Below are positions 1 through 62,855 of a stretch of 64,000 bases of DNA, in pieces. Numbering within the stretch: position 1 is the stretch's first letter; each line of letters begins with the position of its first letter. Below the pieces are notes generated by a model. It made no database searches and was not told the origin of the DNA. It saw nothing but the letters and a program-made list of their open reading frames with translations. Position numbers and translations under genes: made by a program. Origin of the DNA: an uncultured Anaerolineae bacterium (GTDB taxonomy: Bacteria; Chloroflexota; Anaerolineae; Aggregatilineales; Phototrophicaceae); NCBI GenBank assembly GCA_937944445.1, contig CALDYP010000045.1, positions 16,887 to 80,886 of the forward strand, read 5' to 3'.

Positions 1-388
1 TGAGCAGCTCATAGATCAGCGTGCTGGTCGTCGTCTTGCCGTCCGTCCCCGTCACGCCGATCACGATCAGATCGCGCGAGGGGAACCCGTGAAACGACGC
101 CGCCAGATACCCCAGCGCGGCCATGCCCTCCGCCACGCGCACATAAGGCACAGGCAGATCAATCAGCGCCTGCTCGCCCACCACAGCCGCCGCGCCGTTG
201 GCGATGGCCTGCGGGATGAAGGCGTGGCCGTCAGCGCTGCGGCCTGCCCGCGCTACGAACACCCCGCCCGGCTGGACAAGCGCCGCGTTTTCCTCAAACG
301 GCGCGCCAATCAACACATCTGCATCGCCTGTGATCGACCGCAGCGCCCCAGCAGGGAGCGCTTGAAGATGAGTTAAGAGAGACTGCAT
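1..388 (-). CDS. murE: MurE-like UDP-MurNAc-peptide ligase, N-terminal part (gene runs off the left edge)
   Basis: Only the first ~129 codons are inside the window. The N-terminal substrate-binding domain shows the Mur-ligase pattern QPGGVFVARAG...DGHAFI...AIANGAAAVV. It is followed by the ATP-binding P-loop GVTGTDGKTTTSTL, which starts the central domain. MurE adds the third amino acid to UDP-MurNAc-dipeptide in the cytoplasm; its amino acid choice cannot be read because the C-terminal part is missing. The usual DSR motif ahead of the PG(D/G)xFVA block is not present (FEEN stands in that place). It lies about 43 kb from the rest of the dcw genes and is separated from atpFH by a strong terminator. 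MurF is the main alternative; spacing and P-loop favour MurE. Confidence 0.75.
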   Translation of the reverse strand, partial: MQSLLTHLQALPAGALRSITGDADVLIGAPFEENAALVQPGGVFVARAGRSADGHAFIPQAIANGAAAVVGEQALIDLPVPYVRVAEGMAALGYLAASFHGFPSRDLIVIGVTGTDGKTTTSTLIYELL

Positions 389-1342: not shown

Positions 1343-1621
<279 letters not shown>

Positions 1622-1665: not shown

Positions 1666-3282
1666 TTAGTGATGCGCCGCCGCTGCTTCGCCGTGGCCAT
1701 GCTCTTCGTCGTCGTGGTGGTGGCTGACCATCGCCTGCGCGCTGAAGATCAACGTCAGGATCGAGAAGACCGCCGCCTGCGCCACGCCGATGATGATCTC
1801 GAGCAGCAGGATGATCGCCGGGATGGTCGTGCCGACCAAGAACAGGATCACCGCGAACAGCACCGTGCCCGCGAACAACGCGCCGAAGAGACGGAACGAC
1901 AGCGACACAATCTTACCCAACTCTGAGATGATCTCAAACAACCCGACGATGAAATCCACCGCGCCGAGCGGGCGCTTGCCGATGTTGCCGATTGCGCCGA
2001 TGTTGATGAACTTCTGGAAGTAGGACAGGCCCAGCTCGCTCACGCCGAAGTACTGGATCACGACGAACGACAGCAGCGCCAAGCCGATGGTGAAGCTCAG
2101 GTCGGTCGTCACGCCGCGCACAAACGGGGCCACCGTGAAGATTTGATTGTGCAGCGTCGTCGCCTTCTCACCCAGCAGTTCTGGGCGGATGACAATCGTC
2201 TGGCCGGGGACGAGCGCGGCGGTGGCGTTGACGCCGGGGGCGGCCTCAGCGGGGGCGGGTTCGGCTTCGGCGGGCGCTGGCTCGGCTTCCGCCTCCACAG
2301 GCGCCGGCTCGCCTTCAGCCTGCTGCGGCGCCACTTCCACAACGGGCAGGCGGCTGTGCGCTTCGCCTTCGCCGTGCTCCTCGCCAGCGGCGGCAGCCTC
2401 AAACTGGATGTTCACCACCCCGTTGACGGTGTTCGCGGCCACGATGTCCGCAGGGGTGATCGTCAGCTCAGCCCACCCCTCATAGGGCACTTGGACGTAA
2501 GAGGACACCTGTATCGGGTCAGACTCAGTGCGCGCGGTGATCTCATCGTTGAAGCGCGCGGCGATGCTGGCCAGCGTGTCGCCCTGCTGAACGGTGTACG
2601 TCACCTGTTTGTCGAGGAAGGGGTCAAGCCGCCGCGGCAGATAGTCTTGATAGCGCTGCACGCCGAACATCGCTTGGCACTGCTTGTAGGATTTTTCTGT
2701 TGCAGGTGTGCCGATGTTGAGCGGCGTCTCGCTGCGGTAGACGAAGTACGGGCGGCCCAAGAAGCTCGTCTCATGCACAGGGAAGCCGTTCAGCGGCTGC
2801 GGCTCATAGACGGCGCAGTGCACCACGCCGATCGTCTCCACGCCCGGCAGCAGCTTGCCCAAATTAGCGGCAAGCAAGAACAAGAACAGCGACGCCACTA
2901 GCGGGAAGAGCAGATTACGCACGCGCGGCTTGTCGCCTGCTTGCTGCTTCGTCAGCCCCCACAGGCCGTCGATGATGACCTCTACAGCCCCTTGAAAACG
3001 GCCCGGCACTTCTTTCGTCCAGCCGTTGCTGTGGCGGCGCGCGATGAGCGCAATGGCGAACACGATCACCATCGCCAGCACGGCCCCGCCCAGCGAGTTC
3101 CTGATCTCGAAGTCTGCGCTCGGCCAGTGCTTGAGGTAGTACTCAGCCGGCACGGTGATCACGGGCAGCGTCACCGCTTGGCCAACGCCCGGCAGCAGAA
3201 TGAACGGGATCAAGATGCACGCGAAGAATGCAAACGCTAAGAAACCAAGCAGGCCTAAACAACCACGTTGACTCGCACTCAT
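1666..3282 (-). CDS. atpB: ATP synthase subunit a with an inserted, interrupted LysM domain
   Basis: At 538 residues this is about twice the usual length. The normal core is intact: TM segments at ~65-83, 122-145, 393-413 and the C-terminal helices, with the essential stator arginine R464 in SLSFRLFGALFAG. An additional N-terminal hydrophobic segment lies at ~9-33. The extra length lies between TM2 and TM3 (~148-390), a loop that faces outside in E. coli subunit a. It contains LysM pieces in order: YTVQQGDTLASIAARF (~229-244), ITPADIVAANTVNG (~275-288) and LVPGQTIVIRP (~357-367). A Pro/Ala/Glu-rich linker separates the last two. The C terminus is His/Asp/Glu-rich (HHHDDEEHGHG). A strong AAGGAGGAGG site fixes the start. 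Peptidoglycan contact by the insert is inference. Confidence 0.93.
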   Translation of the reverse strand: MSASQRGCLGLLGFLAFAFFACILIPFILLPGVGQAVTLPVITVPAEYYLKHWPSADFEIRNSLGGAVLAMVIVFAIALIARRHSNGWTKEVPGRFQGAVEVIIDGLWGLTKQQAGDKPRVRNLLFPLVASLFLFLLAANLGKLLPGVETIGVVHCAVYEPQPLNGFPVHETSFLGRPYFVYRSETPLNIGTPATEKSYKQCQAMFGVQRYQDYLPRRLDPFLDKQVTYTVQQGDTLASIAARFNDEITARTESDPIQVSSYVQVPYEGWAELTITPADIVAANTVNGVVNIQFEAAAAGEEHGEGEAHSRLPVVEVAPQQAEGEPAPVEAEAEPAPAEAEPAPAEAAPGVNATAALVPGQTIVIRPELLGEKATTLHNQIFTVAPFVRGVTTDLSFTIGLALLSFVVIQYFGVSELGLSYFQKFINIGAIGNIGKRPLGAVDFIVGLFEIISELGKIVSLSFRLFGALFAGTVLFAVILFLVGTTIPAIILLLEIIIGVAQAAVFSILTLIFSAQAMVSHHHDDEEHGHGEAAAAHH

Positions 3283-3366: not shown

Positions 3367-3621
3367 TTATTCGCTTGGAAGCTGCTGCTGTGGCAAGCGC
3401 TTCACCAACGTCAGCGTCAGCCAGATCATGAGGGTCAAGCTGAGCGGCACACTCGCCACCAAGAGGCAGATCGTCGCCGGGCCACGCCAGCCCAACTGTG
3501 CGTCAATCCAAAGCCCCAACAGCAGCGCCCCGATCACCAGCACTACCGTCACAAACCCTGAGAGCGCCGTGATGCCTGCAATCCCTAAGTTTTGCAGTCG
3601 GCCACGGCGCGCCTCAGCCAC
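3367..3621 (-). CDS. atpI: AtpI/AtpZ-type small membrane protein of the ATP synthase operon
   Basis: 84 residues with two predicted membrane helices (~13-38 and ~46-70) joined by a short polar turn, ending in KRLPQQQLPSE. It stands directly upstream of atpB, where AtpI or AtpZ normally sits. AtpI is reported to help c-ring assembly or magnesium supply, but this family is weakly conserved. The assignment rests on size, topology and position more than on sequence motifs. A candidate promoter lies just upstream, after the nuoN stop. Confidence 0.7.
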   Translation of the reverse strand: MAEARRGRLQNLGIAGITALSGFVTVVLVIGALLLGLWIDAQLGWRGPATICLLVASVPLSLTLMIWLTLTLVKRLPQQQLPSE

Positions 3622-8543: not shown

Positions 8544-11009
8544 TTAGCCCGCTGTCACAACGCCGCTTGAGACGGCCAAAACGATGCCGATGATCAAGAA
8601 GGCGATCAGCACCGCCAACAAGTACTGCTGAATGCGCCCGGTCTGCGTCCCGCGCAGCCAGCCGCCCAGCGTGTAGATCGACCGCGGGATGCCATCACCC
8701 ACCCCGTCGATCAGCCACGAGTTGAGCACCTTGATCAGGTCGCCCAGCCATGTGAAGAACGCGCCGATGGCGTGCAGCGTCCCGTCGATCACGCCGCGGT
8801 CGAGGAAGGTGTTCACCTGCCGCGCCAGCCACTGCGAGGGCTTCACGAACAGCACGCTGTAGAGGTCGTCCATGTAGTAACGCTTCTGCAGCGTCGTGTA
8901 GACCGCGCTGCCGAGGATGCGCTCCATCGGGTCGGTCTCACCGGCTTGCAGCGGCCGCCGCCCGTACATGCGCCAGCCGAGATACAGCCCGCCCAACGCC
9001 ACCGCGAACGACACCAACACCGGGAAGAGGTTGAACGGCGGGTGGAAGGGCGCGAAGTTCGGCTCTGGCAGCACGGAGAACTCAAGGAAGTGGAAGAAGG
9101 GGTTGCCATCGGGGCTGAAGATCGGCCCGAAGAGGGGGAACTCTTTGGGCACGCCCACGAAGCCCGCGAACAGCGCGAAGAACGACAGGATGATCAGCGG
9201 CAGCTGCATCGTGATGCTGACGATGCTGCGCGCCCCGCCGAGGCCAGCGTGCTTGGCCTCTTCCGTGCGCGGCTCGCCGAGGAAGGTCAAGCAGATCTGG
9301 CGCATCGTGTAGAAGGCCGTCAGGAAGGCGGCAACCGCCAGCAGGAAGAACACCAGCGCCTGCGGCCCATAGCCCTTGAGCGTGCCGTACCACGCCTCCG
9401 CGAGGATCTCATCCTTTGACCAGAAGCCCGCGGTAATCAGCGGGAAGCCCGCCAGCGCGAAGCCGCCGATCACGAAGCCGACGAACGTCACCGGGATCTT
9501 CTTGGCCAGCCCGCCCATGTTGCGCATGTCCTGCGGGTCGAAGGCGTGGCCGTGGCCGTGTTCTTCATGGTGACCATGCTCGGCGTGGTGGCCGTGGTCG
9601 TGCGCGTGAGGGTCGTCGTGGGCGGCGTGGGCCGCTTCAGGGTGCGCCTCAGCCGCCTGCGCCGTCTCGTAATAGGGGCGTGTTGTCGGCTCTGGCTCGT
9701 GGTCGTGCGCATGCTCGTGCAGGTGATGCGCCCCGTGCTCCATCGCGTGGATGACCGAGCCAGACGCCATGAACAGCAGCGCTTTGAAAAAGGCGTGCGT
9801 GATGAGGTGGAAGGCCGCCGCCACATACGCGCCGATGCCCAGCGCCGCCATCATGAAGCCGAGCTGCGAGATCGTCGAATAGGCCAGCACCGCTTTGACG
9901 TCGTTCTGCGCGACGGCCATCGTGGCCGCGAACAGCGCCGTAAACGCCCCGACCACCGCCAGCAGCACCAGCGGCAGGTTGTAGACGCCGATGTGTGGGT
10001 TGGCCACCCCGCCGATGGGGTCGCCCGCGCCGACGAACAACGGGAACATGCGCAGCACCGCGTAGATGCCCGCGCTGACCATCGCCGCCGCGTGGATCAT
10101 CGCGCTGACGGGCGTCGGGCCTTCCATCGCGTCCGGCAGCCACACGTGCAATGGGAACTGCGCAGACTTGCCGATCGTGCCGATGATGAGGAAGCTGCCG
10201 ATCAAGCCGCCCGCGCTGACCCCCAAGCCGCCGAACAAGATGGCCGGCGCGGTGTTGATCGCGTTGAGCAGCGCCGCATCCTGCATGATCTCGCGGAAGT
10301 TGAGCGTGCCCGTCATCGTGTACAAGTAGGCGATGCCCAGCAGCATGATCACATCGGCGACGCGCGTCACAGTGAAAGCTTTGATCGCTGCGCGGTAGGC
10401 GCTGTGCTTCTCGAACCAGAAGCCGATGAGCATGTACGAGCACAAGCCCATCACCTCCCAGCCGACGAACAGCAGCAGCAGGTTGTCGGCCACCGTCAGC
10501 GTGAGCATGGCCGCGGCGAAGAGGCTGATGAGCGCGAAGAAGCGGCTCTGGCGCGGATCGTGCGCCATGTAGCCGATGCTGTAGATGAAGATGCACAGCA
10601 CCGCAATCGGAACCATCACCAGCAGCAGCGCGTTGAGCGGGTCAACCATCACCCCCATGCGGAAGGCCGTCGTGCCGGTTGCCATCCACTCCACCGCGCT
10701 GGCGAAGACGACTTCCTCGCCGAAGTGCCGCACGCCCAGCGCCTGCCCAACGATGTTGAGCGAGATGAGCAGCGCCATCACCACCCCGCTGAGGCCGACC
10801 GTCACGCTCAGCACACGGCTGAGGGGCGTCACGACGGGCACGAGCATCCCGTTGTAATCGGGGTGGTGGCCGCCGTATTCGTGGCTCGTGGCCGGGACCA
10901 GCCGTGCGCGGTTGGTGGCGAAGGTGATGATGATGAAGGCCAGCAGCGGCCCGACCGGAACCAGCCACGGCAAAAAGTTAGGATCGTTCAACAACAAGGC
11001 TATGTCCAT
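8544..11009 (-). CDS. nuoL: NADH-quinone oxidoreductase subunit L, enlarged
   Basis: 821 residues against about 610-660 usually. The antiporter core is standard: WEVMGLCSYMLIGFW, K281 in GTIGKSAQFPLHVWLPDAMEG, and IHAAAMVSAGIY. Two enlargements are visible. The first is a His/Glu/Asp-rich loop at ~424-492, between GSVIHAMEHG and DPQDMRNMGGL. The second lies in the C-terminal lateral-helix region, where residues ~735-760 and ~761-786 form two similar units in tandem with a 26-residue period (FLDRGVIDG... and VLNSWLIDG..., each followed by LG and a hydrophobic run). They precede the final TM anchor after TQTGRIQQY. The longer lateral helix fits the presence of two NuoM subunits. Confidence 0.95.
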   Translation of the reverse strand: MDIALLLNDPNFLPWLVPVGPLLAFIIITFATNRARLVPATSHEYGGHHPDYNGMLVPVVTPLSRVLSVTVGLSGVVMALLISLNIVGQALGVRHFGEEVVFASAVEWMATGTTAFRMGVMVDPLNALLLVMVPIAVLCIFIYSIGYMAHDPRQSRFFALISLFAAAMLTLTVADNLLLLFVGWEVMGLCSYMLIGFWFEKHSAYRAAIKAFTVTRVADVIMLLGIAYLYTMTGTLNFREIMQDAALLNAINTAPAILFGGLGVSAGGLIGSFLIIGTIGKSAQFPLHVWLPDAMEGPTPVSAMIHAAAMVSAGIYAVLRMFPLFVGAGDPIGGVANPHIGVYNLPLVLLAVVGAFTALFAATMAVAQNDVKAVLAYSTISQLGFMMAALGIGAYVAAAFHLITHAFFKALLFMASGSVIHAMEHGAHHLHEHAHDHEPEPTTRPYYETAQAAEAHPEAAHAAHDDPHAHDHGHHAEHGHHEEHGHGHAFDPQDMRNMGGLAKKIPVTFVGFVIGGFALAGFPLITAGFWSKDEILAEAWYGTLKGYGPQALVFFLLAVAAFLTAFYTMRQICLTFLGEPRTEEAKHAGLGGARSIVSITMQLPLIILSFFALFAGFVGVPKEFPLFGPIFSPDGNPFFHFLEFSVLPEPNFAPFHPPFNLFPVLVSFAVALGGLYLGWRMYGRRPLQAGETDPMERILGSAVYTTLQKRYYMDDLYSVLFVKPSQWLARQVNTFLDRGVIDGTLHAIGAFFTWLGDLIKVLNSWLIDGVGDGIPRSIYTLGGWLRGTQTGRIQQYLLAVLIAFLIIGIVLAVSSGVVTAG

Positions 11010-61924: not shown

Positions 61925-62003
61925 CACAATGGAACCCAACGTGCGCAATTGTCGTCATAACGATACAATAGAAACAATTGGTCAAGATGTGAAGGAGGGT
62001 TTG

Positions 62004-62855
62004 ATGGGCAAGAAGATTATTGTGCTGCTGATCGTGCTGCTGATCGGCGCGGCCAGCGCTGCCGCACAAGAGCGCAGCCACACCGTGCAGCGCGGGGAAA
62101 ACCTGACGCGCATCGCGCGGCTCTACGGCGTCAGCGTGCAGTCGATCATCACGCGCAACAACCTCGCCAACCCAAACCGCATCCTGCCCGGCCAAGTCCT
62201 CATCATCCCATCGACCACGCCGCCGCTGGTCACGGCGCCCGTCCCGCCGACGAGCGTCACCACCTACACGGTGCAGCGCGGCGACACCCTGAACACCATC
62301 GCAGCGCGCTTTGGGCTGTCCTCGTGGCGGCAGATCGGCGCGTTCAACAACTTGCAAACGCCCAACGTGATCTTTGCCGGGCAGGTGCTGCAAATCCCGC
62401 CCGCCAGCTATGTGCCGCCTGCCAGCTATCAGCCCAACCTCAGCGCGGGGCAAGGCGGCGGCGCGCTCCCACCGCAGCAGACCATCACCTACATCGTTCG
62501 GCAGGGCGACACGCTCGACAGCATCGCTCGCGTCTACAACACGACTCAAGCGGCCATCCTGCAAGCGAACAACCTCGTGACGACCGTCGTGATCCCCGGG
62601 CAGGTGCTGCTCGTCCCGCTCAACACCGTCGTAGTTCAGCCGACGCCCCTCCCGATAGTTCAGCCGCCGGCGGTTGTGCTGCCAACGCCAGTCAACAACA
62701 CGCCGATCCGTGGGCCGCGTTACGTCGTCCAGCCCGGCGACACGATGATCCAGATCGGACGGCGCGCCAACCGCAGCCCGTGGGCCATCGCCGCTGCCAA
62801 CGGCATCTACAACTTAAATCGCATTTTCGTCGGGCAGGTGCTGATCATCCCGTAA
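62004..62855 (+). CDS. Secreted protein with four LysM domains
   Basis: 283 residues from an ATG behind GAAGGAGGG. Signal peptide (MGKKIIVLLIVLLIGAASAAA) followed by four LysM units: HTVQRGENLTRIARLYG, YTVQRGDTLNTIAARFG, YIVRQGDTLDSIARVYN and YVVQPGDTMIQIGRRAN. Each ends in a GQVL.IP motif, and Pro-rich spacers lie between. No catalytic domain follows, so it is a pure glycan-binding protein of the wall. The second unit is very close in wording to the LysM pieces in the ATP synthase subunit a of this window. Confidence 0.93.
   Translation: MGKKIIVLLIVLLIGAASAAAQERSHTVQRGENLTRIARLYGVSVQSIITRNNLANPNRILPGQVLIIPSTTPPLVTAPVPPTSVTTYTVQRGDTLNTIAARFGLSSWRQIGAFNNLQTPNVIFAGQVLQIPPASYVPPASYQPNLSAGQGGGALPPQQTITYIVRQGDTLDSIARVYNTTQAAILQANNLVTTVVIPGQVLLVPLNTVVVQPTPLPIVQPPAVVLPTPVNNTPIRGPRYVVQPGDTMIQIGRRANRSPWAIAAANGIYNLNRIFVGQVLIIP

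Follow-up and report, generated by a model that had tools for sequence, protein, structure and literature searches.

A 64,000-nucleotide stretch of contig CALDYP010000045.1 (the window), from an uncultured Anaerolineae bacterium of the Phototrophicaceae, carries an atpB gene whose product, subunit a of the F-type ATP synthase, contains a LysM domain built into its external loop. Sequence, conservation and predicted structure all give this placement good support. The gene occupies the coordinates, minus strand and frame that a preliminary description, made from the sequence without database searches, had assigned to it (1666-3282; 538 amino acids; P0001), with atpE and atpF downstream (Table 1).

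The atpB gene and its insert

The membrane core of AtpB is intact in P0001, in agreement with the preliminary description. Pfam ATP-synt_A (PF00119) matched the protein in two stretches with 108.6 bits against a cut-off of 33.9, P0001 is predicted to have the AtpB fold, and the essential arginine R464 aligned with R210 of the Escherichia coli subunit, a pairing counted by hand from the 5t4o_K alignment. P0001 was the only AtpB found in its own draft genome (81% complete), and a LysM-bearing AtpB was likewise the only one in the relatives G001, G010 and G028 (each at least 93% complete). A paralogue or decoy AtpB is ruled out for these four genomes, in each of which both PF00119 matches lie in the one LysM-bearing frame.

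The insert, previously put at about 240 residues, comprises 242 residues (149-390) between core helices 119-142 and 395-417, the latter following it in the AlphaFold2 model. Pfam LysM (PF01476) matched residues 229-245 (27.7 bits; cut-off 20.9; E 2.7e-6), corresponding to piece 1 alone because linkers of 27 and 66 residues come after helix 1 and helix 2. The order of the three LysM pieces proved correct, with the pieces located at 229-244, 277-288 and 357-367, and these linkers are the short and long insertions already noticed between them. With the linkers taken out and the pieces joined, three proteins reached 49.1 (P0001), 38.9 and 48.3 bits, covering positions 1-42 of the 43 in the profile. 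Substituting other loop segments of the same proteins for pieces 2 and 3 gave 25.6, 22.7 and 26.8 bits. In the first part of the insert, C202 is invariant and C156 is present in at least 90% of 121 AtpB rows, and the subdomain that holds them (149-222) is common also to LysM-less relatives. The preliminary description named neither this subdomain nor the extra N-terminal helix (Table 1), nor relatives whose LysM is unsplit.

Structure prediction, proposed earlier as a check, modelled the insert as LysM. AlphaFold2 gave the LysM pieces a predicted local distance difference test score (pLDDT) of 95-98 and the linker 2 block one of 44-52; the model has the strand-helix-helix-strand arrangement of LysM, and 47-49 modelled residues superposed on solved LysM domains at 1.6-2.2 Å. 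The three pieces are thus predicted, from this model, to fold together as a single LysM domain. A plain Foldseek search with the first AlphaFold2 model, the core of which was poorly modelled, returned no match at E 0.001. With a second model, Foldseek placed ATP synthase chains among the best 50 of 95 rows, and comparison with Protein Data Bank structures gave chains of ATP synthase and V/A-ATPase; it is therefore the first model that underlies the superposition on LysM domains.

Table 1. Features of the atpB region; coordinates are positions in the window, residue numbers refer to P0001
Feature	Coordinates	Strand	Basis
atpB, F-type ATP synthase subunit a with LysM insert, 538 amino acids (P0001)	1666..3282	-	translation, Pfam PF00119 + PF01476
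Extra N-terminal helix of AtpB, residues 3-32	3187..3276	-	AlphaFold2 model
Core helix 119-142, entering external loop	2857..2928	-	AlphaFold2 model; homology to 9itj and E. coli
Loop subdomain 149-222 with C156 (2815-2817) and C202 (2677-2679)	2617..2838	-	coordinates, alignment
LysM piece 1 (strand 1 + helix 1), residues 226-246	2545..2607	-	Pfam 27.7 bits; conservation; pLDDT 98
Linker 1 inside LysM, residues 247-273 (27 residues), Y-E-G-W-like motif	2464..2544	-	alignment
LysM piece 2 (helix 2), residues 274-288, LysM Asn N284	2419..2463	-	conservation; helix 277-283 in AlphaFold2 model
Linker 2, residues 289-354 (66 residues), Ala/Glu/Pro-rich	2221..2418	-	alignment; low AlphaFold2 confidence 301-340
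LysM piece 3 (strand 2), residues 355-367	2182..2220	-	conservation; strand 362-366 in AlphaFold2 model
Exit segment 368-390, returning to membrane	2113..2181	-	conservation
Essential Arg R464 = E. coli R210 (RLFG helix)	1891..1893	-	alignment; invariant in 121 AtpB rows
atpE, subunit c, 76 amino acids, next gene downstream of atpB	1343..1573	-	PF00137
atpF, subunit b fused to C-terminal part of delta, 271 amino acids	503..1318	-	PF00430 + PF00213
Small protein, 84 amino acids, in atpI position upstream of atpB	3367..3621	-	position alone

Several further traits of the region were recorded. The C-terminus of AtpB (1666-1720, minus strand) is His-rich, with H521 and H523 invariant across 22 aligned rows, and the start of the b-delta fusion encoded by atpF resembles a signal peptide. 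For the small protein in the atpI position, Pfam returned nothing up to E 0.01. Immediately downstream of the FO genes comes a Mur ligase gene that looks like murE (1-388, minus strand, and 15745-16950 in L061; Mur_ligase_M, 168.8 bits). Farther along, an insert of some 67 residues rich in His, Asp and Glu (9542-9743, minus strand) precedes the QDMR motif of NuoL (8544-11009), and a LysM search of the own genome found a secreted-looking protein of 308 residues with four LysM modules (61929-62855, plus strand).

Conservation and distribution of the split LysM

The residues that mark a LysM domain, namely the G and T that start helix 1, the Asn of helix 2, and the L and Q of the (P)GQ strand, are kept across 70 AtpB proteins with a split LysM: G234, T236 and N284 are each present in 69/70 and L357 and Q361 in all 70. 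Mean pairwise identity among these proteins was 0.50, 0.35 and 0.56 for pieces 1, 2 and 3 and 0.74 for the C-terminal core. Linker 1 (26-49 residues, counted from 246) had a mean identity of 0.33 and linker 2 (12-114 residues, counted from 287) one of 0.23, while the exit segment was 23 residues long in 70/70 rows, with an identity of 0.69. N284 presumably answers to N32 of the AtlA LysM domain, and T236 is paired with AtlA T13. In the AtlA study, N32 is a buried Asn and T13 touches a lactyl group (PMC4083421).

When the insert was used as a query, 22 protein clusters, the query included, matched at E <= 0.001 among 7997 candidates scored from 5.8 billion. A second query, P0020, gave 472 matches, and the best 120 of these underlie a set of 121 distinct proteins in which, by eye, 70 non-partial members have a split LysM and 11 an unsplit or decayed one. 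The preliminary description had named lack of conservation in homologues, or an assembly error, as grounds for rejection; neither applies, and homologues retain the insert. Of 82 relatives scanned with Pfam, among them one partial protein, 41 matched LysM at E 0.01. An unsplit LysM is present at the same loop in a second AtpB lineage, with P0078 matching LysM positions 1-42 at 39.3 bits and P0076 scoring 17.3 bits, below the cut-off. A long loop is commoner than LysM: the C202-to-R389 segment spans 68-244 residues in the 121 proteins and, where LysM is absent, is often charged and helix-like by eye. Seven LysM-less relatives from the same family (L038, L039, L041, L042, L049, L050 and L054) have long charged inserts, coiled-coil-like by eye, in this AtpB loop.

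Among genomes, the LysM-module profile (A2) matched 6/98 members of the family, in 4/24 genera, and 6/154 members of the order, these being the same six; in a phylum sample its single match among 400 genomes was the own genome. At E 0.001 in a class sample, 52/396 genomes matched and four matches were AtpB by score (181-232 bits). A class-wide LysM-AtpB is ruled out by this count of just four in 396 genomes. Loci were available for 26 of the 52 weaker class rows of A2 (<28 bits), and a script check found the AtpB motif in none of these 26. A profile of the unsplit form (A5) matched 0/98 family genomes at E 1e-9 in a search run without a positive control and hence uninformative; in the class it matched 7/396 genomes at E 1e-7, with the AtpB motif in 0/9 loci. 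Since the A5 searches gave no AtpB locus, the unsplit form is known here from database proteins only. Carriers of LysM-AtpB include four Anaerolineae draft records, among 19 loci. PF00119 matched in 56/61 genomes, the own genome included. Four genomes (G050, G056, G045 and G005) have a short AtpB of 222-321 residues (L003, L004, L005 and L006), three of them together with a long-loop AtpB; the short frames are perhaps a second kind of ATPase.

Split rows fell on one side of a branch both in a FastTree phylogeny (74/74; support 99) and in an IQ-TREE phylogeny (20/20; 100/99). Unsplit rows lay elsewhere, with LysM-less rows (six and four, respectively) among them, and at least five state changes were required in both trees. 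Database proteins were labelled by eye from the loop sequence and loci by motif, with L043, L045, L047 and L048 labelled as lacking LysM by default. The FastTree phylogeny excludes P0022 as partial, P0083-P0090 as near copies, L001 and L002 as belonging to the own genome, and L018, L035, L040, L057 and L058, for which no frame was extracted. By eye, the spacing of the exit segment is equal in the split and unsplit LysM forms, and this likeness of spacing hints at a common source of both; LysM may have been gained once and then lost, or gained twice.

Does the LysM domain hold the stator to the wall?

Comparison with solved enzymes sets the insert apart. The E. coli subunit a (5t4o, 6oqr) resembles P0001 in its core helices and R210 but has 16 residues (122 to 139) where P0001 has 241 (146 to 388). 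In the Chloroflexus aurantiacus subunit (9itj, 9itm; 312 amino acids), 41 residues separate the matched stretches (137 to 179) as against 226 in P0001 (156 to 383), an interval below the 43 positions of the LysM profile. The Chloroflexus ATP synthase records, 9itj and 9itm among them, contain two subunit a chains per entry (36 chains in 18 entries). This AtpB loop lies outside the membrane in the E. coli enzyme. The loop of P0001 is likewise predicted to be external, by homology to solved AtpB, as the preliminary description had it, and we infer from the same homology that it faces the wall in this organism. In element order, signature residues and predicted fold, the domain is like those of Thermus thermophilus NlpC/P60 (4uz3) and Enterococcus faecalis AtlA (PF01476); unlike them, it is split by two linkers and lies within the loop of a membrane protein that belongs to a housekeeping enzyme.

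Peptidoglycan genes are present in the own genome (eight transpeptidase matches in seven frames; six Mur-ligase matches), and the AtlA study describes LysM as binding GlcNAc-X-GlcNAc glycan, where GlcNAc is N-acetylglucosamine (PMC4083421). An outer-face LysM would therefore hold the enzyme to the wall. The insert probably binds glycan, and such binding could anchor or position the enzyme: by gripping the GlcNAc-containing glycan of peptidoglycan, LysM would hold the ATP synthase stator to the wall and fix its place. We put at about even the chance that the external loop of AtpB, with its conserved split LysM, grips GlcNAc-containing wall glycan and so holds the stator against peptidoglycan. 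The wider proposal, a cell-wall-anchored ATP synthase in an Anaerolineae clade whose FO stator holds peptidoglycan through LysM in subunit a, much as the flagellar motor does, is tentative and somewhat short of an even chance.

MotB fixes the flagellar stator, part of another ion-driven rotary motor, to the wall through an OmpA-like domain. The likeness would be one of principle: in both cases a wall-binding domain would hold the stator of a rotary motor that ions drive. The tether would work as MotB does, but in a different motor and by a domain unrelated to the OmpA-like one, which is not among the five Pfam families listed for P0001 up to E 10. From the same phylum comes the PilO-LysM fusion of Litorilinea aerophila, which its description proposes as a wall anchor for another motor, speculatively in the authors' own words; PilO is a type IV pilus alignment protein, and the fusion, near archaellum genes, occurred in 3/244 screened organisms (PMC13319060). 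It resembles P0001 in joining LysM to a membrane protein associated with a motor, likewise in Chloroflexota, and differs in not being ATP synthase. No description of LysM in ATP synthase subunit a was found in the literature searched, most subscription papers being outside its scope, and those papers that bring together ATP synthase, MotB, a stator, the cell wall and a peptidoglycan-binding domain deal, by title, with other motors throughout. Precomputed domain lists already show PF00119 and PF01476 together.

Three observations weigh against a wall tether: linker 2 interrupts the groove lip, since it enters the domain at the loop which in AtlA borders the sugar-binding groove; P0001 has one LysM only; and many relatives carry a different insert at the same place and do without LysM. 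The domain could instead be a fold captured as a rigid building block that binds no sugar and now only packs against subunit b, the c-ring or other parts of the loop, where it stabilizes the stator or shields the outer proton path. The interrupted glycan lip suits such a role, as do the C156/C202 subdomain shared by LysM and LysM-less kinds and the charged, by eye helix-like inserts of LysM-less relatives, which look as if other external modules suffice. However, the groove is uninterrupted in the unsplit lineage, and the residues kept are those of the LysM signature, including T236, whose AtlA counterpart contacts a lactyl group (PMC4083421). T236 could persist as a helix cap, so the argument from signature residues is weak. 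Given the position of linker 2, the single LysM and the other inserts in relatives, the building-block explanation therefore retains an appreciable minority chance, though it is unlikely overall.

A less probable alternative is that LysM holds another GlcNAc-bearing partner (lipid II, nascent glycan or a glycosylated surface layer), placing ATP synthase near wall synthesis or the poles. LysM reads GlcNAc-X-GlcNAc and not whole murein (PMC4083421), Chloroflexota envelopes are layered (PMC13319060), and the Mur ligase gene directly follows atpF; however, gene neighbourhood by itself is weak, and the murE link is known here from the own genome. It is most improbable that linker 2, acidic and partly His-containing, is the working part, collecting protons or metals like a brush close to the outer half-channel, with LysM serving only to display it: its 14 Glu in 67 residues in P0001, five His in two of the four linkers inspected and the His-rich insert of the own-genome NuoL are in keeping with that idea, but some members that retain the LysM pieces have a linker 2 of only 12-14 residues. 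That the domain is an artefact of assembly or gene prediction, or a LysM-like motif arisen by chance, is next to excluded and found no support, even with an own genome that is a draft of 92 contigs: assembly error is ruled out by the 22 insert-matching clusters (query included) from several sources, the single-contig genome G028 and the four Anaerolineae records, and a chance motif by joined-piece scores above the swapped-segment controls (49.1 versus 25.6 bits).

Subunit a is highly conserved, and the solved bacterial examples compared have no more than short outer loops at the insert site. The LysM of P0001 is an example of a domain opened by two linkers yet retained, for which the unsplit relatives provide a natural control. 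If a conserved glycan-binding fold stands at this site, some bacteria would use the wall to hold or position their ATP synthase, and the location of bacterial ATP synthase and the mechanical support of its stator would become directly testable questions. If the wall tether is true, ATP synthase in these bacteria would be a rotary machine bolted to the wall and not free in the membrane.
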